DNA of 64,000 nt from IMG/VR virus record IMGVR_UViG_3300035703_000027, positions 1 to 64,000 of that record. The stretch is one strand, 5' to 3'. Positions 21,839-50,334 of the stretch are shown here, piece by piece. Under the pieces are notes generated by a model. That model was not told where the DNA came from, ran no database searches, and saw nothing but the letters and a program-made list of their open reading frames with translations. The position numbers and the translations under genes are program-made. Every line of letters begins with the position of its first letter. Within the stretch, counting starts at the first letter, position 1. Source of the DNA: a virus.

Positions 21839-21856
21839 GGGGCCGGAGGATTCCCC

Positions 21857-23645: not shown

Positions 23646-23664
23646 GGGGCCGGAGGATTGCCCC

Positions 23665-25467: not shown

Positions 25468-25471
25468 CGCC

Positions 25472-30025: not shown

Positions 30026-30291
30026 TCGTTGTGGCGCTCGACGGGACCGAATACCGGCTCAGGGACGGCAAGTGGCTGGGGCTGCCGGGGCGCACCCTCA
30101 AGCTGCTGGAATCCACCCGCGACCTGTGGCAGCTCGACATGCCGGAAGGGACCGGGCCGGGCGTGCTGCCAACCCAGCGGGATCGCGACAGGGCGTGGGC
30201 GAAGTGGGTGGTGCGCCACTACGGCGGCGCCCTGGTGCACGAGTCCCCCCTTCCGCCCCACGCCCCGGAGCGCCCCGGCGTCGTTTACTGA
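30022..30291 (+). CDS. Hypothetical 89-aa protein coupled to module protein 5
   Basis: ATG 30022 overlaps the previous stop (ATGA), with CGGAGG upstream. The protein is a compact predicted beta sheet plus helix (MIVVALDGTEYRLRDGKW, LPGRTLKLLES) with no known motif. A similar small gene (33275) follows the other large zinc-peptidase member, also directly at its stop. Both could be antidotes, chaperones or assembly partners of the preceding large protein. That is a positional guess only. Confidence 0.65.
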   Translation: MIVVALDGTEYRLRDGKWLGLPGRTLKLLESTRDLWQLDMPEGTGPGVLPTQRDRDRAWAKWVVRHYGGALVHESPLPPHAPERPGVVY

Positions 30292-30304
30292 CGCGGGCGG
30301 CCCT

Positions 30305-30344
30305 GGCAATTCCTGACCTCGTGTCAGCAGCCCGGGGCTAGGAT
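30305..30344 (+). promoter_or_regulatory. Class G promoter before module protein 6
   Basis: GGCAA at 30305-30309, a 29-base spacer, TAGGAT at 30339-30344. The interior differs from the other copies while the two ends and their spacing are kept, which supports real selection on them. Confidence 0.65.
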
Positions 30345-30361
30345 GTGGGGGGAGCACCCCC

Positions 30362-33271: not shown

Positions 33272-33274
33272 CCG

Positions 33275-33547
33275 ATGCGCATCCACCTGAGCGACGGCCT
33301 GGACACGGCCGTGCTGGACGACAGCGGACCCGAGCTGCGCTGGGAGTCCGACCGCCCGAGGCTGCGGGCTGCGCTTGATGCCTGCGTGCCCCGCTGGCGC
33401 AGCCGGGTCCAACCCCACCCCGACGACGGCACGATGCAGATCGCGAAGATGGCCGCGGCCGACTTTGCGCTGACCATCGTGAAGGTCGAAGGGGCGCGCA
33501 AGCGCCGCGCAGGGGCCGAGCCGCCCCCGCCCGGCACGGTGCTGTAG
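33275..33547 (+). CDS. Hypothetical 90-aa protein following module protein 6
   Basis: ATG 33275 is four bases after the previous stop. The protein begins MRIHLSDGLDTAVLDDSG and contains a helical KMAAADFALTIVKVEGARKRR stretch. It has no known motif. Its position matches that of the small gene after module protein 5, so it may serve the same purpose for a related peptidase-bearing protein. A hairpin (GAGCCG ... CGGCTC) after its stop is a weak terminator candidate, followed by TACAAT, a likely -10 for the nuclease gene. Confidence 0.6.
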   Translation: MRIHLSDGLDTAVLDDSGPELRWESDRPRLRAALDACVPRWRSRVQPHPDDGTMQIAKMAAADFALTIVKVEGARKRRAGAEPPPPGTVL

Positions 33548-33637
33548 GCCCCCCGGGAGCCGCACGCGCCGGCTCGCCTCGGCCGTTGTTTCCCCGCTGG
33601 CGCATAAGGGGTACAATCGAGGCCCGAGGAGAACGCC

Positions 33638-34498
33638 ATGGAAGCCCGACCCCCCGCGCTGTTCGGCCGCGCCGCCTTGCTGGTGGCGGCGGTGCTGTCC
33701 CTGTCATGTGCCGTCGCGGTGCCCGCGGAGGTGCTCGCGCCGCTGGCGGCGGCGTCGCCTGGCGCGTCCCCGGTGGCGGTGCCGAGCGCGGCGCCAACCG
33801 CCCCGGGCGAGGCCGCGCCGGTGCCGGCCCCCGAGGGGGGCTACCCCACGCCGGACCCGGGCGCGCGGCAGCTCCAGGTGGCGCGCGTGGTGGACGGCGA
33901 CACGATCCAGCTCGTGGAGGGCGGCAAGCGCTTTTCGGTGCGCCTCATCGGGATCGACACGCCGGAGACGGTGCACCCGAGCAAGGGCGTGGAGTGCTAC
34001 GGGCCGGAGGCGTCGGCGTTCGTGAAGGGCCTGCTGACGGGCAAGGTGGTGGCCTACGGGACGGACCCGACGCAGGGCGAGACGGACAAGTACGGGCGCG
34101 GCCTGGGCTACGTCTGGTACGAGGGGCGGCTGGTGAACCAGGAGATCGTGCAGCGGGGGCTCGGGCGCGAGTACACCTACGCGAAGCCCTACCGCTACCA
34201 GCGGGAGTTCCGGGCCGTCGAGGCCAGCGCCCGCGCGGCCGGGCTGGGCCTCTGGGGTGGGGCCTGCCCGCAGACGTTCGAGTTCAGGACCCGCACCGAG
34301 CCGCTGGACGGGCCGGCCCTGGTCGATGTGGACAGCCTCCCCGACGCGCCGGAGTACGTCGCGCCTTCGATCGCGGTGAGCCTCCCCGCCGTGGCAAGCC
34401 CGGAGCCGTACAACCCCTGCGGCCCGGGGATGGTCTGGGTGGACGGCTACACGCGCAAGGATGGCCGATCCGTGAAGGGCTACTGCCGGCGCAAGTGA
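33638..34498 (+). CDS. Secreted thermonuclease-family lipoprotein with C-terminal KDG motif
   Basis: A 286-aa staphylococcal-nuclease-fold enzyme. The N-terminus is a lipoprotein signal (LLVAAVLSLSC, Cys near 24), then a Pro/Ala linker. The catalytic core is complete: VVDGDTIQL, then VRLIGIDTPE (Arg and the Asp-Thr-x-Glu metal and base residues, near 105), then DKYGRGLGYV with the second Arg near 153. The extreme C-terminus reads VDGYTRKDGRSVKGYCRRK, the same hairpin motif as in the phage's N-modules, and includes a possible disulfide Cys pair. It is expected at the cell envelope, where it could degrade DNA of competing phages. ATG 33638 has CGAGGAGAACGCC. Confidence 0.85.
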   Translation: MEARPPALFGRAALLVAAVLSLSCAVAVPAEVLAPLAAASPGASPVAVPSAAPTAPGEAAPVPAPEGGYPTPDPGARQLQVARVVDGDTIQLVEGGKRFSVRLIGIDTPETVHPSKGVECYGPEASAFVKGLLTGKVVAYGTDPTQGETDKYGRGLGYVWYEGRLVNQEIVQRGLGREYTYAKPYRYQREFRAVEASARAAGLGLWGGACPQTFEFRTRTEPLDGPALVDVDSLPDAPEYVAPSIAVSLPAVASPEPYNPCGPGMVWVDGYTRKDGRSVKGYCRRK

Positions 34499-34522
34499 CG
34501 CGCTTGGCCCGCTGCCGCAGGC

Positions 34523-34834
34523 CTACCAGTCCGGCTCGACCGAGGTCGTCTCGATGCCGCCGCCGGCCGGCATCACCGTGTAGAGGCGGTTCTCGACCCG
34601 GTAGACGCACTCGCCCGTCCACGTGTCGAGCCGCACGTTGCGGTGGTTGAAGCTGGCGTAGCGGCCCGGGAAGGGCATGTCGAACGCCACGATCGCGAGG
34701 TACAGCCCCGCGGCCGTGAGCAGCGCGACCTGGAGCCGTGACAGCGGGGCCTCGCGGGCGCGCCGGTAGCACTCGGGGCACACCGTGGTCGCACGGGGCG
34801 GCGTCTCGGGGCTGGGTGGCGGGGTGGTCGTCAT
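34523..34834 (-). CDS. Small membrane protein with N-terminal CxxC (103 aa)
   Basis: This is the only minus-strand gene in the long plus-strand block. ATG at 34834 has a strong AGGAGGGCCCCACC ribosome site. Residues 19-25 (CPECYRRA) look like half a zinc knuckle. Residues 33-52 (LQVALLTAAGLYLAIVAF) form one membrane helix, and a polar 50-residue tail follows. It converges with the nuclease gene with only 24 bases between them. The orientation and separate ribosome site mark it as a moron-type insertion. Function unknown. Confidence 0.7.
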   Translation of the reverse strand: MTTTPPPSPETPPRATTVCPECYRRAREAPLSRLQVALLTAAGLYLAIVAFDMPFPGRYASFNHRNVRLDTWTGECVYRVENRLYTVMPAGGGIETTSVEPDW

Positions 34835-34912
34835 GGTGGGGCCCTCCTGACCACAGCCATACCCCGCCGCCGGGCGGACCACGCCGGCCCCGGAGCGATG
34901 CGCCCGCGTCGT

Positions 34913-34957
34913 GGCAATCAGGCGATCGCCCGGGCGCCAACGGTGGCACGCTAGAGG
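34913..34957 (+). promoter_or_regulatory. Class G promoter variant before module protein 7
   Basis: GGCAA at 34913-34917 and a TAGAGG at 34952-34957 are 34 bases apart, so this copy departs from the strict 28-29 spacing. Its place directly before a family gene argues it is a relic or a variant. Confidence 0.4.
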
Positions 34958-34973
34958 CTGCCCGGAGGTAGCC

Positions 34974-37900
34974 ATGGCCCTGACGTTGCGTGTCCCGACC
35001 CGCCTGCTGAACCGCGACGAGCTGCTCTCGCTGCTCAAGTCGCTCAGCCACACCCGCGCGCACACGCGCCAGACGAAGTACGGCGCGCAGTGGGTGCACG
35101 ACTACTTCCGGCAGAGCAAGGAGGAGCGGGCGGCCCTGGTGGGCAAGCTCGCCAGGAAGCTCGCCCGGGGCGACCACCACGAGGCCATCGGCACGCTCGC
35201 GCAGGCCACGCTGGTGGCGAAGCGCATCAGCCGGCAGGCGCCCATCGACGTGCACGTGACGCAGGACGCGGACGGGCGCTACGGGGTGACGGCGAAGCCG
35301 AAGGCGACGCTCGCCATGCCGGTGGTGGCGTCGGCCGGCAAGGCCTACGTGGAGCACCCGGTGGCCGGCCGCGTCGAGATGAACGCGGTGCTCGCGGGCC
35401 GGGGGCTGCACCAGGTCGGGCGCAAGACGCTGGAGAAGCACGCGCACGTCGTGGCGACGATCGACGGGACGGACCACGCCACGGCGCTTGCCAAGCTGCA
35501 CGGCCAGCAGCGCGAGGCGATCGCCGCCCGGCTGGCGGCCGGCAAGACGGTGGCGGCCCGGGTGGTGGCGCCCCACGATTCTGCGTTGCACGCGCAGCTC
35601 GCCGGGGTGAAGGCGGAGCGGGCCCGCAAGGCGGAGCAGCGTCAGGCGGTCCGGCTGGCGCGCCAGGCGGAGCGCGAGGCGCGCGCGCAGCGCAACCTGG
35701 CGCGCGAGCAGCAGCGCACGGTGCGCAGGGCCGAGCAGAACCGGGCGCGCGCCGAGAAGCGGCGCACGGGCACAGGCCGCAAGCCCGGCGCGCAGCCGGG
35801 GAACGACAACGCCCAGGGTGCGCACGAAGTGCCCGCCTGGGCGCAGGGCGAGCGTACGCTGCCCACCTGGTCCTTCGGGGACGGCGGGGCGCGGCACGTC
35901 GCGGGGCTCGTCAAGGACGCGCTGGGCGAGCACGCGTTCCCGCAGACCACTGCATCGGCACCGGGCGCCATGGCCTATGTTTCGTGGCCGATGGGCGGCT
36001 ACAGCTACAACCTGGAGGTACGCCCCACCGCCGGCAACGTCATGGTGGCCTCGCTGGTGGCGCAGGACGGCAAGGGCCAGCAGGCGACGGTGTGGGAGCG
36101 GGCGGTGGACGGCACGCGTGACGACACCGAGGCCGCCCTGAAGGAGGGCGCCGGGGTGGCGCTGGTGCATGCGGGCCTGAAGGCCGGCACCCTGCCGCCC
36201 CTGCCCGAGCGCTGGTGGGCGCCGAAGCCGCCCGAGGTGGCGCCCACGCCCGAGGTGAAGCCGGCGGCCGAGAAGAAGCCGCGCGTCCGCAGCGGCAAGA
36301 AGGCCGGCGCGCAGCCCGGGAACGACAACGCCAAGGGGCCGCACGACGTGGAGCCGGCCGCCGAGGTGGCGAACCTGCACGCGCACCGGCACGACCTCGC
36401 GGAGCTGGTCAAGGCTGCGCTGGGGCCGGCCGGGGCGCGGCTGCGGGTGCAGGACTTCGCCCCGCGCGGACAGGGGGGCGTGCGGTCGATCATGGGACTT
36501 TCGGGCGCGGACCGGAAGGCGGCTATCGACGGGGTGGTGGGCCCCGGCAGTGCCCTGGAGATCGTAAGCGGCGAGCAGGGCGGGCCGGTCGAGCTGAGCT
36601 GGAGCATGCGGGGGGTCGCAGGGGTCGAGGAGAGCTACAGCCTGAAGGCCACGCCGGGTGGCGAGGTCGAGCTGGGGATGTGGCGCACCGACTACGACAA
36701 CCCGGACGCCAGCGGCTACGTGCCGCTGTGGCGCCAGCCGGCGGGGGCCTCGCTCGCGGAGGTGCAGGCCGCCCTTGCGGCGGGTGCCGAGGCAGCCCTG
36801 GTGCACGCCGGCGAGCGGGGGGACCAGGAGCTGCCGCCGCTGGGCGACGACACGGGCCGCAAGCCCGGCGCGCAGCCCGGGAACGACAACGCCAAGGGCA
36901 CCCGCGGCAAGAAGAAGGAGCGCGCGCCTCTGGCGACCCGGGACATCGCCGGCATGTCGCTGGAGGAGGTCAAGGCGCTCGTCGAGGACACCGCGTCCAT
37001 GCTGGATGGCAACACCGTCTACGACGGCGTGGTGATGGTCCAGGACGGCGCCGGGTTCAACGCGACGGACCACCACGCGGCGCTGCGCTGGCTGGGGCAG
37101 CACTACAAGACGGACCTCGACTACGTGCTGATGGCGCAGTCGCTCATCAAGTACAAGGGGCAGTACCTCGACGATCGCGCGGAGGTGTTCAAGGCGCTGG
37201 TGCGGGCGGCGGCCCCCGAGGACGGTGGTTCCGGGCCGCGCTTCAAGTGGAACATCAAGGCGGCGGGCTGGGTGCTCGGCAACGGGGACGTGCAGGGTGA
37301 GCGCCCGCCCATGTGCGTCTACGCCAAGGGCGAGGGCCAGTACGGGGTGCAGTTCAAGTACAACGCCGACTTCGTGGACGGCATCAAGCGGCTGGTGCCG
37401 CCAGGTCAGCGCACGTGGGACTCCGCCCGCAAGGAGTGGACCGTCAGCGCCCTGGGGGCGAACAAGCTGCTTGGGGAGTTTGGGCACCGGGTCGGGATCG
37501 ACTTCGAGGGGCACCAGGCCCTCGCGGCGGCGATGGAGTCCGAGGCGGGTGAAGCCGCCAAGAAGGAAGCCGCCGAGGCCGAGAAGCGCGCGGCCGAGCT
37601 GGCGGAGGCGCGGGTGCTGATGGGCGACGAGGTGCCGCAGGACGGAGAGTACGTGCTGCGGGGGCTCAAGGTCATCAAGGCGGCGCCTTACGTCACGCTG
37701 GAGGCGGTGCCGGGCTACGCGACCAACTACCAGGTGGCAGTGAAGTTCAACCAGTTCGACCCCGAGTTCAAGGATCGGCTCAAGGGGGCGGTGCGGGCGC
37801 GCTGGGAGCCTGCTTACAAGTCGTGGCTGGTGGACGCCCGCGAGGTGCGGGAGGTGCTCGCGCTGTTCCCGGGGGCCGGCATGGACGCCGCGGTGTACGA

Positions 37901-40460
37901 GGCCCACGGAGCCCTGCTTTCGGAGTCCGACGACGACCTCCGGCGGGCGCTGGGCATGTTCCCGGTCGTGAGCAAGGAGAACACCGACTTCCAGGAGCCG
38001 GCGGGCTGGTCCACGCACACGATGCACGACTACCAGCGCAAGGGTGCCAACTGGCTGCTGGAGACGAAGAAGGGGATCCTGGGGTTCGGGGTGGGGCTCG
38101 GCAAGTGCCTGGGGCACGGGACGCCGGTCATGATGGCCGACGGGAGCATCAAGCCGGTGCAGGACATCGTGAATGGCGATCGCGTGATGGGGCCGGACTC
38201 GGCGCCGCGGACCGTCATGGGGGTCAACCGGGGCCGCGGGCCGCTCTACCGCATCGAGCCCGTGAAGGGCGACGCCTGGGTCTGCAACGACGTGCACGTG
38301 CTGACGCTGCGCCAGAGCGTGGGCGGGGCGGTGTTCGACATTCCGCTGGACCAGTACCTCGCGCACAAGGACACGCGGGCGCTACGCGACGCCAAGCTGT
38401 TCCGGGTGCCGGTGGAGTTCCCGGCCCGGGCGACGGCGCTCGACCCCTACATCCTCGGGGTGTGGCTCGGGGATGGAAACTCGCACCGGCCGAACATCCA
38501 CACGGTGGACGAGCCGGTGATCGAGTACCTGGTGCGCGAGGCGCCGAAGTACGGCGTGGAGGCGAAGGTAAGCCCGCAGCGGACGTGCACGGACGTGTAC
38601 ATGACGACGGCACGGGGCAGTCGGCAGCGCAACGTGGTGCTGGAGGAGGTCCGGCGCTGCTGGGTGGGCGAGGAGAAGCGCATCCCGGCGGACTATCTGC
38701 GCAACGGGCGCGAGGCACGGCTGTTGCTGCTCGCCGGGCTTATCGACACGGACGGCCACCTGACGGGCGGGTGTTACGAGGTCATCACCAAGTTCCCCGG
38801 GTTGCGGGACGACGTGCTCTACCTGGCGCGCAGCCTCGGCTTCGCGGCGTATGCCTCACGGAAGGTGGCGACCATCAAGGCGACCGGCTTCGAGGGGGTG
38901 TACTGGCGCGTCGTCATCAGCGGCGAGCTGGATCAGGTGCCGTGCCGGGTGGCGCGCAAGCAGGCCCCGCCGCGGCGCAGCAAGAAGCTCGTGACCAACA
39001 CGGGGTTCACGGCGGTGCCGCTCGGGGAGGGCGACTACTACGGCTTCACGCTGGACGGTGATGGCCGGTTTTTGCTCGGGGACTTCACGGTCACGCACAA
39101 CACCAACATCAGCATCGCGGCGGCCTGCAAGGCGCAGGAAGAGCACCCGGGCCGGCCTGCTATCTGCGTGGTGCCCGGCAAGCGCCTGTATGGCTGGAAG
39201 GCGGACATCGAGGCGGCGATGCCGGGCAAAAAGGTGTTCGTGTTCGACCAGGGCACCTCAGAGCGCGAGCAGATCAAGAAGGCGGGCGACCTGAGCCAGT
39301 ACGACTTCATCGTCGTGACCTACCGGATGCAGACGATCGAGAAGGACCACCTGGTGGGCCTGAAGCCCAGCGTGGTCATCTACGACGAGGCGCACAAGCT
39401 CAAGAACAAGAAGGCCCAGCAGTCGCAGGCAGCGGCGGAGCTGTCGGCGGCGGCGCCCTATGTGTGGGACCTGACGGCCACGCCGATGCCCAACCGGCCG
39501 GACGAGCTGATGGCCCTCATTCAGCGCAACCACGGCAAGAAGGCCATCCCGTCCAAGGACCTGTGGAACCGCTACTACAAGGTCGAAAAGAGCCGGTTCG
39601 GCTCGAAGGTGGTGGGCATCAAGGATCCCGAGGGCCTTAAGCAGGCGATCGCGCCGTTCGTGTTCATGAAGCGGGGCGACGACGCGGACGTGAACCTCAA
39701 TCTGCCGCCGCTGCGCAAGGGGCGCACGGTGCTGGAGCAGACGCAGTTCGAGCCGGATCAGCGCAGGGCGTACAACAGCGCTGCCGCGAACGTCCTGGCC
39801 TACATCAAGAGCATCGGGGGCAACCCGACGGCGGCGCAGCGGGCGGAGGCGCTGGTGCGCATGGGCAAGCTGGAGCAGATTGCCATCACGCCGGAGCTGG
39901 TGGATCCGACCTACAGCAAGCGGACGCCGAAGATACAGGAGATGCTCGACGAGATCGAGAACCGGGAGGGCGAGTTCCCGGGCAAGGGCCACGTGGTGTT
40001 CTGCCGGTTCGCGCAGGCCCTCCAGATTGCGAAGCGCGAGGCCCTCGCGGACGGGATGTTCAGGCCGGATGAGATCGCCATCATCGACGGGGCCACGTCC
40101 AAGCCGGACGTGCAGCGCATCCAGGACGCCCTGAACGCGGGCCGGCTGAAGCTGGTGCTGTGCTCGGATGCGGCGATGGAGGGCCTGAACTTCCAGCGGG
40201 GCTCGAATCACATGGTGCACCTCGACACCCCGTGGAGCCCGTACATGCAAGAGCAGCGCGACGGCCGGGTGTACCGGCAGGGCCAGCAGGAGCCGGTGCG
40301 CATCCAGACCATCGCGCAGGGCCCGATCGACCAGCATAAGGACACCCTGTCGATGCGCAAGGAGCGCATGAACGCGCAACTGTTCGGCAAGCAAGACGAG
40401 GAGGCCGCGGCCGCCGCCGTGACGGTGGCCGACCTCATGACGATGGCCCGGGAGGTGTAG
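34974..40460 (+). CDS. Module protein 7: SNF2 helicase interrupted by an intein
   Basis: 1828 aa before splicing. The N-module is diverged (LLKSLSHTRAHTRQTKYG, then ERAALVGKLARKLARG). Three copies of a GAQPGNDNAKG-type motif separate middle segments, near 270, 445 and 630. Two HARP-like domains lie near 780-850 and 890-960. The SNF2 motor follows: YQRKGANWLL near 1025, Walker A GVGLGK-T split by the intein, DEAHKLKN near 1470, DLTATPMPNRP near 1500 and RVYRQGQQEP near 1770. After splicing the motor is complete. A translocase carried with the genome could clear host proteins from or repair incoming DNA. ATG 34974 follows CGGAGG. Confidence 0.85.
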   Translation: MALTLRVPTRLLNRDELLSLLKSLSHTRAHTRQTKYGAQWVHDYFRQSKEERAALVGKLARKLARGDHHEAIGTLAQATLVAKRISRQAPIDVHVTQDADGRYGVTAKPKATLAMPVVASAGKAYVEHPVAGRVEMNAVLAGRGLHQVGRKTLEKHAHVVATIDGTDHATALAKLHGQQREAIAARLAAGKTVAARVVAPHDSALHAQLAGVKAERARKAEQRQAVRLARQAEREARAQRNLAREQQRTVRRAEQNRARAEKRRTGTGRKPGAQPGNDNAQGAHEVPAWAQGERTLPTWSFGDGGARHVAGLVKDALGEHAFPQTTASAPGAMAYVSWPMGGYSYNLEVRPTAGNVMVASLVAQDGKGQQATVWERAVDGTRDDTEAALKEGAGVALVHAGLKAGTLPPLPERWWAPKPPEVAPTPEVKPAAEKKPRVRSGKKAGAQPGNDNAKGPHDVEPAAEVANLHAHRHDLAELVKAALGPAGARLRVQDFAPRGQGGVRSIMGLSGADRKAAIDGVVGPGSALEIVSGEQGGPVELSWSMRGVAGVEESYSLKATPGGEVELGMWRTDYDNPDASGYVPLWRQPAGASLAEVQAALAAGAEAALVHAGERGDQELPPLGDDTGRKPGAQPGNDNAKGTRGKKKERAPLATRDIAGMSLEEVKALVEDTASMLDGNTVYDGVVMVQDGAGFNATDHHAALRWLGQHYKTDLDYVLMAQSLIKYKGQYLDDRAEVFKALVRAAAPEDGGSGPRFKWNIKAAGWVLGNGDVQGERPPMCVYAKGEGQYGVQFKYNADFVDGIKRLVPPGQRTWDSARKEWTVSALGANKLLGEFGHRVGIDFEGHQALAAAMESEAGEAAKKEAAEAEKRAAELAEARVLMGDEVPQDGEYVLRGLKVIKAAPYVTLEAVPGYATNYQVAVKFNQFDPEFKDRLKGAVRARWEPAYKSWLVDAREVREVLALFPGAGMDAAVYEAHGALLSESDDDLRRALGMFPVVSKENTDFQEPAGWSTHTMHDYQRKGANWLLETKKGILGFGVGLGKCLGHGTPVMMADGSIKPVQDIVNGDRVMGPDSAPRTVMGVNRGRGPLYRIEPVKGDAWVCNDVHVLTLRQSVGGAVFDIPLDQYLAHKDTRALRDAKLFRVPVEFPARATALDPYILGVWLGDGNSHRPNIHTVDEPVIEYLVREAPKYGVEAKVSPQRTCTDVYMTTARGSRQRNVVLEEVRRCWVGEEKRIPADYLRNGREARLLLLAGLIDTDGHLTGGCYEVITKFPGLRDDVLYLARSLGFAAYASRKVATIKATGFEGVYWRVVISGELDQVPCRVARKQAPPRRSKKLVTNTGFTAVPLGEGDYYGFTLDGDGRFLLGDFTVTHNTNISIAAACKAQEEHPGRPAICVVPGKRLYGWKADIEAAMPGKKVFVFDQGTSEREQIKKAGDLSQYDFIVVTYRMQTIEKDHLVGLKPSVVIYDEAHKLKNKKAQQSQAAAELSAAAPYVWDLTATPMPNRPDELMALIQRNHGKKAIPSKDLWNRYYKVEKSRFGSKVVGIKDPEGLKQAIAPFVFMKRGDDADVNLNLPPLRKGRTVLEQTQFEPDQRRAYNSAAANVLAYIKSIGGNPTAAQRAEALVRMGKLEQIAITPELVDPTYSKRTPKIQEMLDEIENREGEFPGKGHVVFCRFAQALQIAKREALADGMFRPDEIAIIDGATSKPDVQRIQDALNAGRLKLVLCSDAAMEGLNFQRGSNHMVHLDTPWSPYMQEQRDGRVYRQGQQEPVRIQTIAQGPIDQHKDTLSMRKERMNAQLFGKQDEEAAAAAVTVADLMTMAREV
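38106..39101 (+). mobile_element. Intein with LAGLIDADG homing endonuclease in the SNF2 Walker A
   Basis: A 332-residue in-frame insertion. It begins with Cys (CLGHGTPVMMADG, Hint block A), has the block B region (VCNDVHVLTL), two LAGLIDADG endonuclease motifs (YILGVWLGDG and LLAGLIDTDG) and ends FLLGDFTVTHN, with Thr as the first extein residue. It sits exactly between the Lys and Thr of the helicase GLGKT nucleotide-binding motif, a favoured intein site because it cannot be lost imprecisely. All splice-critical residues look intact, so both splicing and homing are plausible. Confidence 0.92.
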
Positions 40461-40462
40461 CC

Positions 40463-40711
40463 GTGGCGCTGCTTTCAAAAGACGTGATCCTGCACATGCT
40501 CTACTGGGGCCAGAGCACGGCCCACCGGCTGGCCTACTTCGAGCCCGAGGCCTATGCCGACCTGAAGGAGAGCCTCGCGGCGCTGGGGCTGGCTGCCGAG
40601 GCCCCGCCGTGGATCGACGAGCCGGCCGACGCCGGGTACGCGGCGCAGCGTGCCGCGCGTCTCGCGGCGCTGGAGCGTGACGAGGACGACGGGGGCGCCG
40701 ACGGGGAGTAG
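40463..40711 (+). CDS. Hypothetical 82-aa acidic protein
   Basis: GTG 40463 lies two bases after the helicase stop. The start reads MALLSKDVILHMLYWGQSTAHRL and the protein ends in an Asp/Glu/Gly-rich tail (DEDDGGADGE). It is mostly helical. It is the third small gene found directly after a large module protein (compare 30022 and 33275), but shares no sequence with those. No family recognised. Confidence 0.6.
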   Translation: MALLSKDVILHMLYWGQSTAHRLAYFEPEAYADLKESLAALGLAAEAPPWIDEPADAGYAAQRAARLAALERDEDDGGADGE

Positions 40712-40713
40712 CT

Positions 40714-40753
40714 GGCAAACACCCGGCCCCCGTGGCGCGCGCTGCGCTACGCT
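40714..40753 (+). promoter_or_regulatory. Class G promoter before module protein 8
   Basis: GGCAA at 40714-40718, a 29-base spacer, TACGCT at 40748-40753, then GGGGCCGGAGGG and the ATG at 40773. Confidence 0.65.
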
Positions 40754-40772
40754 GGGGCCGGAGGGTGTCGCC

Positions 40773-43598
40773 ATGCGGTTGTTTGCTGCCATCTACCTGG
40801 ACCTGTTGAAGGCCCTGATTCAGGTCAAGGCCCACACCCGGAAGGACGGCACCCAGGTGCGGGCGCACACCCGCAACATCCAGTCCCGGGCCGAGCGCAA
40901 GGAGCTGGTGGCGGCCCTCGCGCGCAAGATGGCGGACGGCGCGCGCACGCGCCACGCCACCCTGGCGTCGGCCGTCGGGGCCGCCCGGTACGCGTCGAAG
41001 GTCAACGGCAAGGCCGTGCACGTGTACGAGCACCCGGAAGGCGGCTGGGTCGCGACCCATGACGAGACGCACACGGAGGGGCACCCCGAGAAGATCGTCG
41101 CCCTGAAGGGCCGGGCGCGGCTGCACCGGGCGGGCGAGGCCTCGCGCAGCCTGGCGCACCTCAAGGGGCCCATCCTGGAGCACGTCGAGAAGCCGGCGCC
41201 CGCACCCAAGGTGAAGCCGGCCCGGCCCAAGCGGGAGAAGCAGCCGGAGCCGGTGGCGACGCCCGAGCCGGCCGCGAACGACGCGGAGGGGCTGCGCGCG
41301 CAGGCGGAGGCGCTGGGGATCCGGCTGTCGGCGGTGGAGAAGCGGGCGCTGGCGAACGGCAACCGGGTCGTGATGGGCTGGCTGCGCAAGCAGATCGAGA
41401 AGCGGCAGGGCAAGCCCGCGGCGCCCAAGCCGGCGCCCGTGGCGCCCGAGGTGGAGCAGGTGGCGCCCGAGCCTGACGCGCCCAAGCCGGAAGAGAAGCC
41501 CGCCGAACGGAAGCCCCGGGCGGAGAAGCCCAAGGCCCCCGCGCCGGAGAAGGCGGCCGACGCGGAACCCAAGGGGCCGCGCGGTGAACGCGAGTACGAG
41601 GACGTGGGCGAGAAGATCGGGGGGGCGCGCAAGGACCTCGCGGCAGCGTTCGCCCGGGGCGAAAAGAGCTTCGAGAACATCGACTGGTCCGAGATGCAGG
41701 AACTCCCCGAGACGGCGGCCAAGGTCATCATCAAGGCCAACCTGATTGGGCACCTGACACCAGAGCACCTCAAGAGCTTGGGGATGGACGCCCGCGCCGC
41801 GTACATGCTGGATCACATCCTCGGGACCATCGTGCGGGCTCCCAAAGACAGCAACTTGGAGCGTTATCGCTATGCGCGGGCGCTGGACCGCATCGCCAGG
41901 GCGGTGCGTAACGTCAAAACGCTGGACGACCTGCACGGCATGCTGCGAGATATGCACGACGAAGCCGCTGGCGTTTACGGCGACGCCGAGGATCTTGCCC
42001 CCCTGCAACTGCTACAGGCCAAAAAGGCCGTGGTCAGCAAGCGAATCCAGGACCTATATGCCGCTGGCATCCACCCGTCTGGAGACAACGCAGAACTCAA
42101 CAACCTGTTGGCGGAACGCAACAACCTGTGGGACGAGATGAGCACGCAGCTCGACAAGGTGCGCGCCAAGTCACGCAGCACGCCACACCCCTGGGGTGCA
42201 TGCTACGGCGCACTCGGTGCGAACTTCGCCAAAGGCCTGGACAAGCTCGGCTACCAGGTCAGCGATTTTGGGATCCCGTCAGACACCAAGACGATCATGA
42301 ACCTGCCCCGCGGCACCTACAAGACCTCGTGGAGTGACGCCCTGAGCAAGGCGCGCGGCATGAAGGCCGACGACTGGAGCTGGTCCGAAAAGGCGTCAGA
42401 GGGCTCTACGGCCCCGAAGGAAAAGGCAGCCAAGGGAGCAAAGCCGACGGGCGAGATTCGCCTGCCGGACTGGAAGCGCAAGACCCCCGAGCAGTACGAG
42501 CGCACGGGCGGCAAGACGGTGGACTTCGGCGCCCTCTCGAAAGACGGCAAGATCAAGCCGGAGGGCATTATGCAGGCGTTCAAGCTGCGAGGTGTCGAGT
42601 ACGGCAACTGGGTCACGCAGGCCGAGGCGGCCCACCACACGCAGCGCGCCGGCGAGGCCCTGCAAGACCTCGCGACAATTCTGGGGGTCACGCCAGAGCA
42701 TGTCAGCTATGGCGGACGGCTGGCCCTGGCGTTTGGGGCGCGGGGTTCGGGGAAAGCTTTGGCGCACTACGAGTCCGAACGTAAGGTCATCAACCTGACC
42801 AAGCACGCTGGTGGCGGCACGCTGGCCCACGAGTGGGCCCACTTCCTCGACAACATCGTGGCAAACGTCTCGCAGCCGACAACGGGTGAGGTGCAGGACG
42901 CGACGCGTTACATGTCTCACTGGGACGAGAAGGGGGTGCCCGGCCAGGCGCACCCACGCGTCGCACAGGCGATCGCGGGCGTCCTCAAGGCCATGCACGA
43001 GGGCGGCGTTCCCCAGCTTGAATCAGTCAAGCCGCCAAAAAACCCGGCCCCGCTCTACTACAGATACGCCGACCTGGACCAGTTTGTCGCCGAGCACGGC
43101 CCGCAAGAAGGCTTCAACAAGTACATCGAGGGCAAGCGTCAGACCGCGCGGTGGCAGATGCGCACGAGCACCGTGCGCGACTATGCCAAGTACGTCGCGG
43201 CGAAAACGGGGACCATCATCCACTATGACGTGGGGACGCAGAACAGCGATTTTTACACGACGGCCATCACGCAGGACATGGGCTCACCAAAATACTGGGC
43301 AACGCCCCACGAAATGTTTGCGCGGGCGTTCGAGGCCTACGTGCAGGACAAGGGCGCAGAGAAGGGCATCACCAACAACTACCTGGTGGACGGAACCAGG
43401 GTGCCCTCGGACCTCACATACCGGCACCCCACGGCAGGAGAGCGCCCCTTCGCGGTGTACCCGGTGGGCGAGGAGCGCAAGCGCATCAACGCCGCGATGG
43501 ACGACCTGATGGCCGCCCTGCGGGAGACGGACACCCTGAAGAAGGCCCTGGCGCTCGCGGGCCCGTCGAGCGGGATGCTGTTCCGGCGCTGGTGGTAG
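40773..43598 (+). CDS. Module protein 8: N-module with LPD1-type metallopeptidase-like domain
   Basis: 941 aa. Residues 8-155 are a canonical module (LLKALIQVKAHTRKDGTQV). A Pro/Glu/Lys linker carries a small helical domain (LRAQAEALGIRLSAVEKRAL). Near 275 comes DVGEKIGGARKDL, a sequence I know from large polyvalent proteins. Residues 577-720 match the LPD1 domain (IMQAFKLRGVEYGNWV ... LALAFGARGSG ... ERKVINLTKHAG ... AHEWAHFLDN, His-Glu motif near 686). LPD1 is peptidase-like; its targets are not known. The 41.9-43.3 kb part has lower GC than the module. ATG 40773 is used; upstream in-frame codons overlap the previous gene. Confidence 0.82.
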   Translation: MRLFAAIYLDLLKALIQVKAHTRKDGTQVRAHTRNIQSRAERKELVAALARKMADGARTRHATLASAVGAARYASKVNGKAVHVYEHPEGGWVATHDETHTEGHPEKIVALKGRARLHRAGEASRSLAHLKGPILEHVEKPAPAPKVKPARPKREKQPEPVATPEPAANDAEGLRAQAEALGIRLSAVEKRALANGNRVVMGWLRKQIEKRQGKPAAPKPAPVAPEVEQVAPEPDAPKPEEKPAERKPRAEKPKAPAPEKAADAEPKGPRGEREYEDVGEKIGGARKDLAAAFARGEKSFENIDWSEMQELPETAAKVIIKANLIGHLTPEHLKSLGMDARAAYMLDHILGTIVRAPKDSNLERYRYARALDRIARAVRNVKTLDDLHGMLRDMHDEAAGVYGDAEDLAPLQLLQAKKAVVSKRIQDLYAAGIHPSGDNAELNNLLAERNNLWDEMSTQLDKVRAKSRSTPHPWGACYGALGANFAKGLDKLGYQVSDFGIPSDTKTIMNLPRGTYKTSWSDALSKARGMKADDWSWSEKASEGSTAPKEKAAKGAKPTGEIRLPDWKRKTPEQYERTGGKTVDFGALSKDGKIKPEGIMQAFKLRGVEYGNWVTQAEAAHHTQRAGEALQDLATILGVTPEHVSYGGRLALAFGARGSGKALAHYESERKVINLTKHAGGGTLAHEWAHFLDNIVANVSQPTTGEVQDATRYMSHWDEKGVPGQAHPRVAQAIAGVLKAMHEGGVPQLESVKPPKNPAPLYYRYADLDQFVAEHGPQEGFNKYIEGKRQTARWQMRTSTVRDYAKYVAAKTGTIIHYDVGTQNSDFYTTAITQDMGSPKYWATPHEMFARAFEAYVQDKGAEKGITNNYLVDGTRVPSDLTYRHPTAGERPFAVYPVGEERKRINAAMDDLMAALRETDTLKKALALAGPSSGMLFRRWW

Positions 43599-43599
43599 C

Positions 43600-43639
43600 G
43601 GCAAGGGGGAGCCTCACGGGGCGCCCCCGCCCTTACGAT
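43600..43639 (+). promoter_or_regulatory. Class G promoter before module protein 9
   Basis: GGCAA at 43600-43604, a 29-base spacer, TACGAT at 43634-43639. It begins within two bases of the previous stop codon. Confidence 0.65.
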
Positions 43640-43657
43640 GGGGGCGGAGGACACCCC

Positions 43658-45529
43658 ATGCGTTCGATGTCGCACAGGCCTGGCCTGGCGTTGCTCAAGG
43701 CCCTCATCCAGGTGCGCCAGCACACCCGGAAGGACGGCACGACCGTGCGGGCCCACACGCGCAACGTGCAGACCCGGGGCGAGCGGCGCGCGCTGGTGGC
43801 GACGATGGCGGAGCGCATGGCCGGCGGTGCGCCCGTGCGGCACGCGAGCCTCGGGTCCGCCCTCGGGGCGGCCCGGCACGCGTCCAAGGTCAACGGCAGG
43901 GCCGCGCACGTGTACGAGCACCCGGAGGGGGGCTGGGTATCGACGCACGACGGCAGCCACACGGAGGGCCACGACGAGAAGATCGTGGCGGTGAAGGGCC
44001 GGGCGCGCCTGCACCGTGCGGGCGAGGCATCGCGCAGCCTGGCGCACCTCAAGGGGCCCATCGCGGAGCACGTCGAGAAGCCCGCGCCCGCGCCCGCGCC
44101 CAAGGTGAAGCCGGCCCGCCCCAAGGCCCCGCCGCCCGCGGCCGAGCCGGTGCCCGCCGCCCCGGCCGCGGACGCGGCGGCGGCGCGGCAGCGCGAGGCG
44201 GTCCTGCCCGCGGAGCGGCTGACCTACCCGGGGGCGCCGGAGGCGGTGGTGTACCACGACGCCAACAACCACTCGGTCGTGATCAGCTTCCGCGGCGGGG
44301 TGTCCACGGCGGCGACCCGCGAGGCCCTCAAAGCCCGGGGGTTCCGCTACAACGAGGTCGGCAACGACTGGTACGCGCCCCACACGCCCGAGGCCGTGCG
44401 CCTGGCGAACTACACGCGCCGGCGCTACAACGGCCTGACGCCCGAAGAGCACGCCCAGCGGGAGGCCTGGGACACCCTGACGCCCGCGAAGCGCCACGCG
44501 ATCGCCTACGAGCCGCTGACGCAGCTCGGGGGCGCCGGCCCGCAGCACGACAACCGCCCGCACGGGTTGCTGGCGCGCGCCCGGGGCCTCGACCTTCCCG
44601 TGTCGCCGGAGATGGCGCAGGCGGTGCAGGCGCACGACCACCTGGCCATGGTGCAACTGCACGGCGCGGTGCATGCCGCCGAGGGGCGGCGGGGCCGGGA
44701 GGAGGAGCTGCACGACGGCGTGGACCCCCACCCGATGGCGCTGCTGAAAGCGGCGTCCGAGGCCGGGCTGACGTTTGCCCCCGACGAGGTGCAAGCCCTC
44801 GTGGCGCGGCAGCGGCCCGCCCTGCTGGCGGCGCAGACGCGGGTGGCCGAGGCGCAGGTACAGGCCAAGCGCCGCCGGGCGCTGGACAACGCGGGCCTGA
44901 CGGGCGGCGCGCAGCCGCGCGCGTCCTTCACCGCCCCCATCCAGGTGCGGCGGCCCGGCGGGGGCGTCGCGGCGGTGTCCCACACCTTCGAGACCGGCCA
45001 GCGGGTGCTCTGGTCGCGCAAGGGGCAAGCGGTCCCCGTGACGCTCGCCGGCATCATGCAGAAGCCCGGCCAGGCGCCTACCTTCCAGGTGTTCAGCGAT
45101 GACGGGCAGCCGTTCAACGTGCCGGTGGCCGCCATCGCCGGGGCCCCGACCTACGACGCCCCGCCGGCGCAGGGCCCGGCCGACGGGCCCAGGTTCGTGG
45201 ACGCCTACACCGCCAACATCGAGGTCTGGGAGAAGCGGGGCGACGGGGCGGCAGGGGTGCGCAGGCCGCACACCTTCCGGCCCGGCCAGCGCGTCCGCTT
45301 TGCGGACGGCCGCGGCTTCTCCACCGGCGTGCTGCTGTTCATCTACCAGGAGGCCGGCAAGCGCCAGCCGACGTTCCGCGTGGTGAACGATCACACCGGC
45401 GAGGTGCATGCCGTGGTGGCCGACAACATGGTGCGGCGCGTGACCTACAGCCGGCCGCCGGCGCAGGCGGACGAGCTGCGCAAGGCCCTGGAGGGCCCGT
45501 CGAGCCGGCTGCTGGTCGCGCGCTTGTAG
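43658..45529 (+). CDS. Module protein 9: N-module with two SH3-like repeats
   Basis: 623 aa starting at ATG 43658 (GGCGGAGG upstream). The module (residues 8-155) has the RQHTRKDGTTVRAHTRN variant shared with protein 10. Near 198-258 is a segment (VVISFRGGVSTAATREALKA ... WYAPHTPEAVRLANYTRRRY) also present in protein 10 and reminiscent of short DNA-associated domains in polyvalent proteins. Two related beta-barrel segments (SHTFETGQRVLW near 445, PHTFRPGQRVRF near 540) end the protein. Proteins 9 and 10 are tandem paralogues. No enzyme motif is visible, so a binding role is more likely. Confidence 0.75.
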   Translation: MRSMSHRPGLALLKALIQVRQHTRKDGTTVRAHTRNVQTRGERRALVATMAERMAGGAPVRHASLGSALGAARHASKVNGRAAHVYEHPEGGWVSTHDGSHTEGHDEKIVAVKGRARLHRAGEASRSLAHLKGPIAEHVEKPAPAPAPKVKPARPKAPPPAAEPVPAAPAADAAAARQREAVLPAERLTYPGAPEAVVYHDANNHSVVISFRGGVSTAATREALKARGFRYNEVGNDWYAPHTPEAVRLANYTRRRYNGLTPEEHAQREAWDTLTPAKRHAIAYEPLTQLGGAGPQHDNRPHGLLARARGLDLPVSPEMAQAVQAHDHLAMVQLHGAVHAAEGRRGREEELHDGVDPHPMALLKAASEAGLTFAPDEVQALVARQRPALLAAQTRVAEAQVQAKRRRALDNAGLTGGAQPRASFTAPIQVRRPGGGVAAVSHTFETGQRVLWSRKGQAVPVTLAGIMQKPGQAPTFQVFSDDGQPFNVPVAAIAGAPTYDAPPAQGPADGPRFVDAYTANIEVWEKRGDGAAGVRRPHTFRPGQRVRFADGRGFSTGVLLFIYQEAGKRQPTFRVVNDHTGEVHAVVADNMVRRVTYSRPPAQADELRKALEGPSSRLLVARL

Positions 45530-45532
45530 GGT

Positions 45533-45572
45533 GGCAACTCGGGGCCCGGGCAGCCGCTTCCGGCCCTACGAT
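45533..45572 (+). promoter_or_regulatory. Class G promoter before module protein 10
   Basis: GGCAA at 45533-45537, a 29-base spacer, TACGAT at 45567-45572, starting three bases after the previous stop. Confidence 0.65.
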
Positions 45573-45590
45573 GGGGCAGGAGGCACCGCC

Positions 45591-47297
45591 ATGCGCTCGT
45601 ACTTCGTCGGCCCGGGGCTGCAAGCCCTGGAGAAGGCCCTCATCCAGGTGCGCCAGCACACCCGGAAGGATGGTACGGTCGTGCGGGCCCACACCCGCAA
45701 CGTCCAGTCCCGCTCCGAGCGGCACGACATGGTGGCGGCCCTGTCGCGCCGGATGGCGGGCGGGGAGCACGTGCGGCACGCCACGCTGGCCTCCGCCCTG
45801 GGGGGCGCCCGGCACGCCTCGAAGGCGAACGGCAAGGCGGCCCACGTGTACGAGCACGCCGACGGCGGCTGGGTGGTGACGCACGACGCCAGCCACACCG
45901 AGGGCCACAAAGAGCGCATCGTGGCGGTGAAGGGCAAGGCGCGCCTGCACCGGGCGAAGGGACCCTCGCGCAGCCTGGCGCACCTCAAGGGCCCCATCGC
46001 GGAGCACACGCCCAAGCCGTTCGTGCCCAAGGTGAAGCCGGCCCGGCCGAAGAAGCAGCCACCGGCCCCCGTGGTGGCGCCGCTGGACGCGCATGGGGCC
46101 AAGCAGCGCGACCGGGTGCTGCCGCCGCAGCGCATCGCGCTGGAGGAGCGCCCCACGGTGCTTGCCGCGCGCGACATGACGGCGCGCAAGGTCGTCATCA
46201 AGTTCAAGGGGGCGCTCCCGAGCCTCAAGACGGCGGAGGTGTTGCGGGCGCGCGGGTTCGAGCCGCAGCCGGGCGACCAGGTGTGGCTCGCCCCGCTTTC
46301 GCGGCGGGCGGTCCAGCTCGCGAACTACACGCGCCGGCGCTACAACGGGCTGTCGCCCGAGGAGCAGGCCGCCTGGGAGCGCTGGCCCGAGCTGCACCCG
46401 CACGAGCGGGAGCTGCTGGCTGCCGCCCCCCTGCCGCGCATCCGGGAGCGGCCCAAAGACTACCTGGTGCCTAACGACCTCACGGAGCGGGCGCGGGCCG
46501 CGGGCGCGGCCTACGGCATCGACCCGCAGTTCTGGCGCAAGGCCCAGGAGTCGCCCGCGTGGCAGCGGCACCTGGAGCGCCGGGTGGCGATCGCCGAGGC
46601 GGCGATCGACCCCGGGCAGCAGGAGCCCGACGACACCCCGCACGGCCTGCTGCTGCGGGCGCACCGCCTCGCCTTGCCGGTGGCGCAAGACCTCGCCGAT
46701 GCGGCCGTGAAGCTGGACCATGCCGCCCTCGCGAACCTCGCCGGCCAGGTCGAAGCGGCCGAACGGTCCGCGGGCGTGGCCCCCGCCTGGGAGCCTGCCG
46801 ACGATCGCAACGTGCGGCACGAGCCCGTTTCCCCGGGCGAGCTGATTCAGCGCGCGCACCGGGCGGGCCTCACGCTGCCGCGCGAGAGCCTGCAAGTGCT
46901 GCTGGCGGAGAAGCCCGACGAGACGGCGGAGGCCCTGCGGCGCGTCAAGGCGGCGGAGGCCGCGCAGTCCGGGACGGGCAGCTTCACGGCCACGCTGCGC
47001 ACGCCCACGGGGCCGGTGTCCCACACCTTCCGGCCCGGCCAGCGCGTGCTCTACCGGACGCCGTGGGGGCGTGTCGAGGAGGCCACCTTGCAGTCGATCG
47101 ACCTGGAGAAGCGCCGCGTCGGGCTGGTGACGTGGCGCGGTGCGAGCGTCGAGGCCCCGATCCTCGACATCACGCAGCCGATGTACCGGGTCATGCCCAA
47201 GGACCCCCCGACGGGCCTGCCCATGGCCAAGGCGCTGGGCCTGCCGCCCCGGGCCCGGCCCGTCAGCTCGCGGCTGTTTGCACGCTTCCTCGGCTGA
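45591..47297 (+). CDS. Module protein 10: paralogue of protein 9 with one SH3-like domain
   Basis: 568 aa starting at ATG 45591. It has the N-module with RQHTRKDGTVVRAHTRN, then the shared KVVIKFKGALPSLKTAEVL ... LANYTRRRYNGLSPEE segment near 205-265. Helical regions (HGLLLRAHRLALPV, then ELIQRAHRAGLTLP) match the same order in protein 9, and a single SHTFRPGQRVLYR beta-barrel lies near 475-535. Relative to protein 9, one barrel is missing. It arose by duplication and divergence. Its last 35 bases overlap the end of the convergent replication gene. Confidence 0.75.
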   Translation: MRSYFVGPGLQALEKALIQVRQHTRKDGTVVRAHTRNVQSRSERHDMVAALSRRMAGGEHVRHATLASALGGARHASKANGKAAHVYEHADGGWVVTHDASHTEGHKERIVAVKGKARLHRAKGPSRSLAHLKGPIAEHTPKPFVPKVKPARPKKQPPAPVVAPLDAHGAKQRDRVLPPQRIALEERPTVLAARDMTARKVVIKFKGALPSLKTAEVLRARGFEPQPGDQVWLAPLSRRAVQLANYTRRRYNGLSPEEQAAWERWPELHPHERELLAAAPLPRIRERPKDYLVPNDLTERARAAGAAYGIDPQFWRKAQESPAWQRHLERRVAIAEAAIDPGQQEPDDTPHGLLLRAHRLALPVAQDLADAAVKLDHAALANLAGQVEAAERSAGVAPAWEPADDRNVRHEPVSPGELIQRAHRAGLTLPRESLQVLLAEKPDETAEALRRVKAAEAAQSGTGSFTATLRTPTGPVSHTFRPGQRVLYRTPWGRVEEATLQSIDLEKRRVGLVTWRGASVEAPILDITQPMYRVMPKDPPTGLPMAKALGLPPRARPVSSRLFARFLG

Positions 47298-48173: not shown

Positions 48174-48202
48174 TTGACACCTGGATCGCGCTGCCATACG
48201 CT
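48174..48202 (+). promoter_or_regulatory. Sigma-70-type promoter
   Basis: TTGACA at 48174-48179, a 17-base spacer, TACGCT at 48197-48202. It is the only textbook-spaced host-type promoter I found on the plus strand. No gene begins downstream before a strong hairpin at 48338, so it may drive a short RNA. TGACACC here and GGTGTCA at 48244-48250 form a spaced inverted repeat that could bind a regulator. Confidence 0.5.
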
Positions 48203-48208: not shown

Positions 48209-48381
48209 GCTCTTGATCTTGTATGGCTTTTTGCGCGGTTTTGGGTGTCAGGGGCGGCGGCTCTAGGGCGGCGGCTTAGGAAACCAACTCCGACGGGTTA
48301 GATGCTTCGGTGTCTGACTGGGCTATCTCGATCCTCGTAACCACCTCCGTGTTCACGCACGGGGGTGGTTATGTTTTATAG
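48209..48381 (+). ncRNA. Candidate small RNA between promoter and terminator
   Basis: This stretch of the 48127-48489 gap lies between a sigma-70-type promoter and a hairpin followed by TGTTTTA. It has no convincing reading frame and a lower, more even base composition than coding DNA here. It would give a transcript of about 170 bases. I looked for tRNA features (T-loop, acceptor pairing) and found none. It could instead be an untranslated leader or part of a replication origin. Confidence 0.3.
48338..48377 (+). terminator. Strong hairpin with T-rich tail
   Basis: A 14-bp stem (TAACCACCTCCGTG at 48338-48351, CACGGGGGTGGTTA at 48358-48371, one G-T pair, loop TTCACG) is followed by TGTTTTAT. 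This is the classic shape of a factor-independent terminator on the plus strand. Confidence 0.65.
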
Positions 48382-48429
48382 GGGCTCGCTCGGTTGGATC
48401 GCAAGGTCGGCGATCGCAGACGGGACCGG

Positions 48430-48469
48430 GGCAATCCGCCGCGAAGCGCGCACGGGGCCGTGTTACGGT
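48430..48469 (+). promoter_or_regulatory. Class G promoter before the sigma-like protein
   Basis: GGCAA at 48430-48434, a 29-base spacer, TACGGT at 48464-48469, then an ACGGAGG site and the ATG at 48490. The family-type promoter supports grouping this gene with the module proteins despite its weak module. Confidence 0.65.
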
Positions 48470-48489
48470 GGATCCACGGAGGTCCCCCC

Positions 48490-50334
48490 ATGCCCCACCT
48501 GCTGCGATCCGTTGCCGATCACCTCGCCGGGTCCACCCCGCTCCAACGGGTCGCCGGCGCGCTGGCCGGCCCCCTCGAAAAGGGCCTCGTCCACACCTAC
48601 ACGCGCCACATGCACGGCGTCGCCCAGGTGGTGCCCGAGCACATGCGCGCGGACCCCGCCGCCATCATCGGGATGCTTGCCAAGCGGCACCACCACCAGC
48701 TCAGCTTCGACCTGTTCGGCGGTGGCGGCGGCGGGGCGCCCCCGGCCGTCCAGCCCCACGGCGCCGGCAACGGTGGCACGGTGCAGCGCGACAGCATGTA
48801 CCGGGTGCAGGACCAGGAGCCGGCCGTCGGCAGCATCGCGCAGGCCACCTTCAAGCCCGAGCCCGCGCCCCCGGCCACGCAGACGCACCGTCCGCGCGTG
48901 CCCCAGGGGCTGCACCTGCCGGCGGAGAAGGCCGAGGCCCGCAAGGTGCTGGAGGGGGCGCACCGGGACCTGGTGACGGCCCGCCAGCTCGAAGAGGACG
49001 CCAAGCTGGAGCCCGGCCGCCGCGAGGCGCTGCTCGCGCGCGCCACCACGCTGCGCGCGCGGCTCGCCGACGCGGCCGGCCCGGACTACGAGCGCGCCGT
49101 CGAGGGCAAGCTCGTGGCGAACTACGCCCCGGAGATTGGCGGCGTGGTGGCCGACTGGGCCCACAAGGTGGGCGTGCCCGTCGAGCGGGACGCGCACGGC
49201 CGGCCGTCGGGGAACTTCGGCCTGCTGCATGCCGAGGCGCTCGACGCCGCCTACCAGGCGGTGCACCGCTACCGCACCCACAACCGCACCGGCCTGCTGA
49301 AGCTCGTGAAGGGCCAGGTGGAGCAGCGCCTGTTCCGGCACTGGAAGCGGGCCGTCGGCAAGGGCGCGTTCAACATGGGCCAGAACGAGGCCGAGGACGC
49401 GAGCAAGGTCGCACGCTACACCAGCGCGCACGCGTCGGCCTACGGCGAGCAGCCCACGGACGAGCAGGTGGCGGAGGCCCTCGGGATGACGCCCAAGCGG
49501 GTCGCCGACATCAAGCGGCAGGCGATCGCCGCGCTCGGGGACAGCCTGAACCAGACCAGCGAGGACGGCAGCGAGCTGGGAGAGCGGGTGGGCAGCAGCC
49601 GCCAGGACCCGGCCCGGCGGGCGGAGGCCGACGAACTGTCCGACGCCGTGCATACCGCGCTTGCGGAGCTGGATCCGCTGAAGCGCGCCACGGTCCGGGT
49701 GGCGCACGGCATGGGGCTCGACGCGGACACGGCCGCGCACCTCGCCGCGCACACGCAGCTCGACGACCTCGCGGCGGCCTTGCAGGACCACGCCCACCTC
49801 GCCGAGCCCGACGCCCGCGCGACGGCCGCGGTGGGGGCGGTCCAGTGGCGCGCCCCGGGGGACGCGGCGCTGCGGGTGCGGGCGGCGCTGCACCTGCTGG
49901 ACCACGGCGCGGACCCGGTGCAGGCCTTGCAGGCGCCCGAGCAGCGGGAGGATGGGGACAAGCACGACATTTCCGTCTCCGAGGTCTACCGGCGCGTCGG
50001 GCTGAAGCCGGCCAACAGCGGCAGCGTGCTGCGGTCTGCTGAGCAGGCGCTGGCCCGGCACCCGGCGCTGGTCGGCTTCCGGGACGCGCTGCACAAAAGC
50101 TTGTTCGCGCCCATTGGCACGCCGTGGGGGTCGCTGCTCGCGGCGATCGCCCCTGCGGCCCTCCTTGCGAGCCTGCCGGCGCCCTTGGCAGCCCTCGCGC
50201 CCTCGCTCCTCGAAGATGATCGGCACGGCTGGGCGCTGGTGCGGGAGGATCGCGCCGCGGAGGCTGCCATTCTGGCGGCGGCGGCCCAGGGGGGTGGGGA
50301 TGAAACGGTTCACGGTGACGGCGCGGGGCGTTAG
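48490..50334 (+). CDS. Module protein 11: sigma-70-like protein
   Basis: 614 aa. The N-terminus has a reduced module (GPLEKGLVHTYTRHMHG) and a Gly/Pro linker. Residues about 205-300 follow sigma region 2 (VANYAPEIGGVVADWA ... AEALDAAYQAVHRYRTHN ... LVKGQVEQRLFRHWKRAVG). Residues 318-343 fit region 3 (YGEQPTDEQVAEALGMTP, then KRVADIKR). Near 351-375, SLNQTSEDGSELGERVGSSR matches the linker before region 4, followed by ALAELDPLKRATVRVAHGMG. A second HTH-like piece lies near 500 (VSEVYRRVGLKPANSGSVL). It is a highly diverged sigma factor that may arrive with the virion. DNA recognition and RNA-polymerase binding are inferred. Confidence 0.65.
   Translation: MPHLLRSVADHLAGSTPLQRVAGALAGPLEKGLVHTYTRHMHGVAQVVPEHMRADPAAIIGMLAKRHHHQLSFDLFGGGGGGAPPAVQPHGAGNGGTVQRDSMYRVQDQEPAVGSIAQATFKPEPAPPATQTHRPRVPQGLHLPAEKAEARKVLEGAHRDLVTARQLEEDAKLEPGRREALLARATTLRARLADAAGPDYERAVEGKLVANYAPEIGGVVADWAHKVGVPVERDAHGRPSGNFGLLHAEALDAAYQAVHRYRTHNRTGLLKLVKGQVEQRLFRHWKRAVGKGAFNMGQNEAEDASKVARYTSAHASAYGEQPTDEQVAEALGMTPKRVADIKRQAIAALGDSLNQTSEDGSELGERVGSSRQDPARRAEADELSDAVHTALAELDPLKRATVRVAHGMGLDADTAAHLAAHTQLDDLAAALQDHAHLAEPDARATAAVGAVQWRAPGDAALRVRAALHLLDHGADPVQALQAPEQREDGDKHDISVSEVYRRVGLKPANSGSVLRSAEQALARHPALVGFRDALHKSLFAPIGTPWGSLLAAIAPAALLASLPAPLAALAPSLLEDDRHGWALVREDRAAEAAILAAAAQGGGDETVHGDGAGR

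Follow-up and report, generated by a model that had tools for sequence, protein, structure and literature searches.

Phage sigma factors that switch the host RNA polymerase are well known, and sigma cascades are the rule in the SPO1 lineage. Injected polymerases are likewise well known, the virion RNA polymerases (vRNAPs) of N4 and of phiKZ/AR9 being examples. In phiEco32-like phages, late sigma factors (7-11 gp47 and phi32_gp36) act on the host core at dedicated late promoters that precede structural genes; in phage 7-11 these promoters are bipartite, with the consensus GTAAtg-16-aCTA (PMC8948821). Sigma factors are also common in jumbo phages that lack a polymerase (PMC7824862, PMC7598289), and the sigma factor of CBB lies within a region that its authors take as early (PMC5259590). 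The P100-like phage CKA15 encodes a putative sigma factor whose transcript peaks mid-infection and for which a role in the early-to-late transcription switch has been proposed (PMC12282133). We found no documented case of a virion-delivered sigma factor in the open-access literature that could be searched, and the word "sigma" is absent from the main text of the polyvalent-protein survey (PMC5512222). A sigma factor present in a virion preparation of SU10 was rejected as proof of packaging, as it was represented by one peptide in PEG-precipitated material that had not been CsCl-purified.

We analysed a 64,000-nt stretch of phage DNA (the window), part of a record of 121,189 bases that has genes for a terminase, a prohead protease, and a tail sheath, as well as for a portal and a major head protein that are both of SPO1 type. 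Judged from this set of genes, the phage is myovirus-like. The portal and the head protein have their homologues in the SPO1 lineage (Herelleviridae), in which we know of no cargo cluster of the present type. Adjoining the portal gene is a class II tRNA synthetase-like ORF of the D/K/N type (12462-13451; Pfam PF00152, 3e-37). After the portal gene begins a run of large ORFs that have in common an N-terminal module of about 130 amino acids (KALIQVRxHTRKDGTxVRAHTRN...), the N-module, which eleven ORFs carry and one has in two copies. Since these ORFs match DarA_C, PHROG 1926 ("released from the phage upon host infection"), LPD1, and an SNF2 helicase with a DarB-like match, they are probably injected cargo of the P1 Dar or polyvalent-protein type (Iyer et al. 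2017). The SNF2-type ORF (34911-40460; 1849 aa, with an N-module) is interrupted by an apparent intein with Hom_end_hint, Hom_end, and LAGLIDADG matches, and the 1517-aa ORF at 25472-30025, with N-modules at residues 13-141 and 629-760, resembles a fusion of two cargo genes. Past the cargo-like run, with one minus-strand gene between, lies the gene for a sigma-like protein, P0001 (Table 1), which itself lacks DarA_C, LPD1, and SNF2 domains. The GC content of its three codon positions is 0.80/0.51/0.93.

Table 1. Coordinates of the sigma-like gene, its upstream elements, and the cargo-like ORFs in the window
Feature	Coordinates	Strand	Residues	Basis
Ten clustered large ORFs that have the N-module in common, with DarA_C, SNF2, and LPD1 domains	17968..47297	+		
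Eleventh N-module ORF	59572-62037			
Host-type promoter candidate, TTGACA-N17-TACGCT	48174..48202	+		
Intrinsic terminator, 17-bp stem then TTTTAT	48336..48379	+		
Class G promoter, GGGCAA (48429-48434), 29 bp, TACGGT (48464-48469)	48429..48469	+		
Ribosome-binding site, GGAGG	48478..48482	+		Sequence; layout same as in N-module genes
CDS, sigma-like protein P0001, 614 aa, ATG at 48490, stop 50334	48490..50334	+		
N-terminal part, partly Gly/Pro-rich, without detectable N-module	48490..49068	+	1-193	
Region-2-like helical domain	49069..49359	+	194-290	AlphaFold2 and PDB fold matches
Region 3.0/3.1, containing YGEQPTDEQVAEALGMTP (residues 318-335)	49393..49524	+	302-345	Sigma70_r3, TIGR02393, hhalign
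Region 3.2 linker, SEDGSELGERVGSSR	49558..49602	+	357-371	SigA match, hhalign, residue alignment
Region 4.1-like helix, LDPLKRATVRVAHGM	49669..49713	+	394-408	TIGR02393, hhalign, residue alignment
Insert of ~86 aa at the expected 4.1/4.2 junction	49714..49971	+	409-494	Inferred from hhalign and residue alignment
Possible degenerate 4.2 helix-turn-helix, SVSEVYRRVGLKPANSGSVLRSAEQALARHP	49972..50070	+	from 495	By eye only

A sequence-only reading of this DNA had described the protein as a sigma-70-like factor with recognisable region 2, region 3, and region 4 linker patterns. Residues 301-411 matched region 3, the 3.2 linker, and region 4.1 by sequence. The protein was matched by TIGR02393 (1.1e-7), PHROG 351 (5.5e-6), Pfam Sigma70_r3 (3e-5; 24.5 bits, slightly short of the curated cut-off of 25.3), and a PDB SigA sequence (0.0026). 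With hhalign against a profile of eight sigma factors, among them jumbo-phage sigmas of the CBB/GAP32/SE_PL group, the match had an E value of 2.6e-8, and none of 60 shuffles equalled its score. Both patterns that the reading had quoted were located, in regions 3 and 3.2, and the similarity over regions 3, 3.2, and 4.1 is well above chance. By sequence, region 2 gave no significant match (3 of 60 shuffles reached the hhalign score, and the Sigma70_r2 profile did not match), and the region 4.2 helix-turn-helix was undetected by profile (17 of 60 and 10 of 60 shuffles reached the hhalign score). A match to PF04545 was rejected as region 4, as it lands on the region 3 helix-turn-helix instead.

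For region 2, the evidence is the predicted fold. An AlphaFold2 model of residues 192-560 was confident over regions 2-3 only. Every one of the 50 PDB matches listed for this model was a sigma factor or an entry containing one (best E 6.8e-4), and no fold unrelated to sigma emerged. The model does not predict how the domains are placed, which keeps the global TM-scores low, at about 0.2. Modelled separately, residues 194-300 gave a pLDDT of 82 and a pTM of 0.71, and the PDB matches ranked 1-7 were all sigma region 2 (FliA, SigE, SigI1, and WhiG). These seven had TM-scores to the query of 0.52-0.64 and probabilities of 0.92-1.0, yet E values of at least 0.4; the top two superimposed with an rmsd of 2.3-2.6 Å over about 90 columns. 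With no homologue found, the structure was deduced from single-sequence models, which indicate that region 2 is probably present. With the sequence matches over residues 301-411 and the sigma fold matches, the 614-aa protein is a real, diverged relative of the sigma-70 family, as the earlier reading had proposed.

The divergence includes residues with known roles. Two alignments set L272, G275, and Q276 against E. coli Y430, W433, and W434, and both have a gap over E. coli 402-409; an ungapped extension made by eye places D403, Q406, and N409 at L245, A248, and L251, with E407 kept as E249. The usual region 2 residues for core binding (D403, Q406, N409) and melting (Y430, W433, W434) thus appear largely lost. 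The tryptophan pair (W433, W434) is likewise absent from the CBB sigma and from FliA, so its loss alone does not exclude function. At the stretch that might hold a degenerate region 4.2, AlphaFold2 placed helices with low confidence.

Searches for relatives of the protein (peptide-pattern scans of IMG/VR and 85k genomes, and tblastn in INPHARED) returned none, and tblastn against plasmids returned only ordinary RpoD (E 0.03-0.09). Nor were relatives of the phage found in IMG/VR through its portal, capsid, or N-module. A search of IMG/VR with its RecT-like protein gave two contigs, neither with a sigma match. The nearest phage sigma factors are the RpoD-like proteins of the jumbo phages CBB, GAP32, and SE_PL (tblastn E 0.8-9), which have the same 2-3-3.2-4.1 order but are about 330 aa long, with regions 2, 3, and 4 recognised. 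Compared with 7-11 gp47, the 614-aa protein appears to have additional N-terminal and inserted parts.

The gene was also said to carry the promoter of the neighbouring gene family, and a site of this class, GGCAA-N29-TACGGT, is present at 48430, about 60 bp ahead of the ATG and with a spacing of exactly 29 bp. The pattern GGCAA-N29-TAnnnT, which we call class G, occurs at 14 sites in the 121-kb record versus 0.15 expected, with four more at 28 bp. From the expected figure, the arithmetic chance of a site in the 100 bases before the sigma-like gene is roughly 6e-5. In an unbiased scan of all 5-mers, the only words to show strong enrichment at one set distance ahead of TAnnnT were the overlapping ones of TGGCAAA. 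A wide PWM was over-fitted and scored the site of the sigma-like gene poorly, and we used the core pattern instead. In IMG/VR and the genomes, the pattern gave single scattered matches, and no record had an enriched set.

Class G sites (for example at 13681, 21799, 23606, 30305, 40714, and 45533, and beyond the window at 89755, 101713, and 106514) lie in the main ahead of genes for the portal, cargo, tail, and lysis. The genes with a site are that of the portal, eight with an N-module, those for the tail and further structural proteins, a pair that looks holin/endolysin-like by eye, and a small number of others. The genes served suggest a late promoter class, and the site ahead of the sigma-like gene makes it probably a late gene, in line with the earlier proposal that it has a late-class promoter in common with the cargo-like genes. 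The -10 half resembles that of the primary sigma factor; the upstream half lies 12 bp farther out than a -35 element, so that canonical -35 spacing is ruled out. A sigma-54 reading of TGGCA was ruled out by eye, there being no conserved -12 GC. In phage 7-11, by comparison, the two promoter halves have sequences other than those of class G and are separated by 16 rather than 29 bp. At one class G site outside the window (record position 74606, minus strand), the upstream box is also part of an inverted repeat, TGGCAA-N13-TTGCCA, a hint that a dimeric protein may bind it.

Farther upstream of the sigma-like gene is a host-type promoter candidate (48174) with a perfect -35, and between it and the gene stands a strong terminator, the hairpin of which begins about 135 bp past the TACGCT. 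The plus-strand interval 48174-48379 could possibly yield a small RNA of about 170 nt or an attenuated leader. Its pre-terminator part (48202-48336) folds ordinarily (z -0.5), which led us to reject a structured RNA there, and an Rfam search of this region gave no convincing match.

The sequence-only reading had further held that the protein has a reduced N-module and is built like a virion effector. Neither claim found support at the protein level: an HMM built from the N-modules of the 11 other genes scored the protein at -3.8 bits, versus 134-328 for members, and pairwise shuffle tests against the N-modules showed no local similarity significant after eleven tests (best p 0.008). The case for packaging therefore depends on the DarA_C/LPD1/SNF2 neighbourhood and the promoter class. 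Since P1 Dar proteins have no common N-terminal consensus (PMC9024508), absence of the module does not exclude packaging. Packing into the virion and injection are thus plausible but unproven; promoter class and position are compatible with them and also with an ordinary late or self-amplifying sigma, and an ordinary phage sigma made in the cell fits the data about as well.

The reading that we tentatively place first is that the protein is a phage sigma factor that works with host RNA polymerase on class G promoters, its own included. Its 2-3-3.2-4.1 part would bind the host core and steer it to TGGCAA, 29 bp, TAnnnT; class G would then drive not only the genes for portal, cargo, tail, and lysis but also that of the sigma. 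The protein would be made during infection and boost its own synthesis, the starting molecules perhaps coming from read-through from the upstream host-type promoter or from leaky initiation. The homology over residues 301-411, the sigma fold, the SPO1-lineage portal and capsid, the precedent of phage 7-11, and the fixed 29-bp spacing, unexplained by a canonical -35, all speak for it. Circumstantially, so do the dedicated promoter class and the detection of no other sigma-like gene in the 121-kb record with the Sigma70_r2/r4 and PHROG 351 profiles. Against it, region 4.2, needed for the upstream box, is undetected, the core-binding and melting residues are not conserved, and a sigma that drives its own promoter faces a start-up problem. 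Moreover, since the class G -10 is host-like, host holoenzyme with an activator could read these promoters. The start-up problem also bears on a close rival, which we regard as possible though somewhat doubtful: a sigma made late, packed into the head with the neighbouring cargo, and ejected with the DNA, which would redirect host RNA polymerase at once, ahead of any phage gene expression. Because the terminator cuts off the 48174 promoter, the first molecules, if class G needs the sigma-like protein, would have to come from leakage, read-through, or the particle, which favours packaging. It is not obvious which later promoters a late-only sigma would serve, so keeping it for the next infection would be reasonable; in addition, the phage has a prohead protease, and the gene adjoins the cargo-like cluster and belongs to the same promoter class. 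However, the N-module is absent, a minus-strand gene separates the gene from the cluster, and class G, which stands before lysis genes and some others as well, marks lateness rather than packaging. The likeness to the N4 and phiKZ/AR9 vRNAPs is in the idea of transcription specificity delivered with the DNA; those are polymerases, whereas a sigma, if packaged here, would borrow the host enzyme.

Less likely than either is a sigma-derived binder of RNA polymerase that does not initiate, an anti-sigma-like decoy that would fill sigma sites and, through region 3/3.2, the exit channel, blocking or biasing host transcription. The best-conserved part, region 3-3.2-4.1, is one that contacts polymerase, few of the residues that bind the clamp helix and melt the -10 are left, and 4.2 is undetected; the sigma 2 fold is seemingly kept, however, and the tryptophan pair is missing from other phage sigmas too. 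Improbable, in our view, is a virion-packed, injected sigma whose stretched region 4, lengthened by ~86 residues between 4.1 and a degenerate 4.2, lets one polymerase contact the -10 and the box 29 bp upstream; were this true, the particle would itself supply the host RNA polymerase with promoter specificity. The large size, divergence, and structural and cargo surroundings would also suit a protein with a structural or DNA-binding role, one that has taken over a sigma-like helical fold and has no contact with RNA polymerase; we give this very little weight, as the 3.2 linker is conserved and its known role is inside the polymerase. Virion delivery is a testable possibility and not a finding: with one candidate protein, one promoter class of fixed spacing, and likely injected cargo nearby, the question of a virion sigma can be addressed directly in this genome. 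Even the ordinary outcome would be a new sigma-promoter pair with non-canonical geometry.

The N-terminal part of the sigma-like protein contains QLSFDLF (residues 70-76; 48697-48717), which resembles a sliding-clamp-binding motif, a post hoc observation that we treat as a lead only. The one other match to such a motif in the predicted proteome, also noted post hoc, is QASMFG at the C terminus of the cargo ORF at 21857-23584. The phage has its own sliding clamp gene (record positions 71124-72296).
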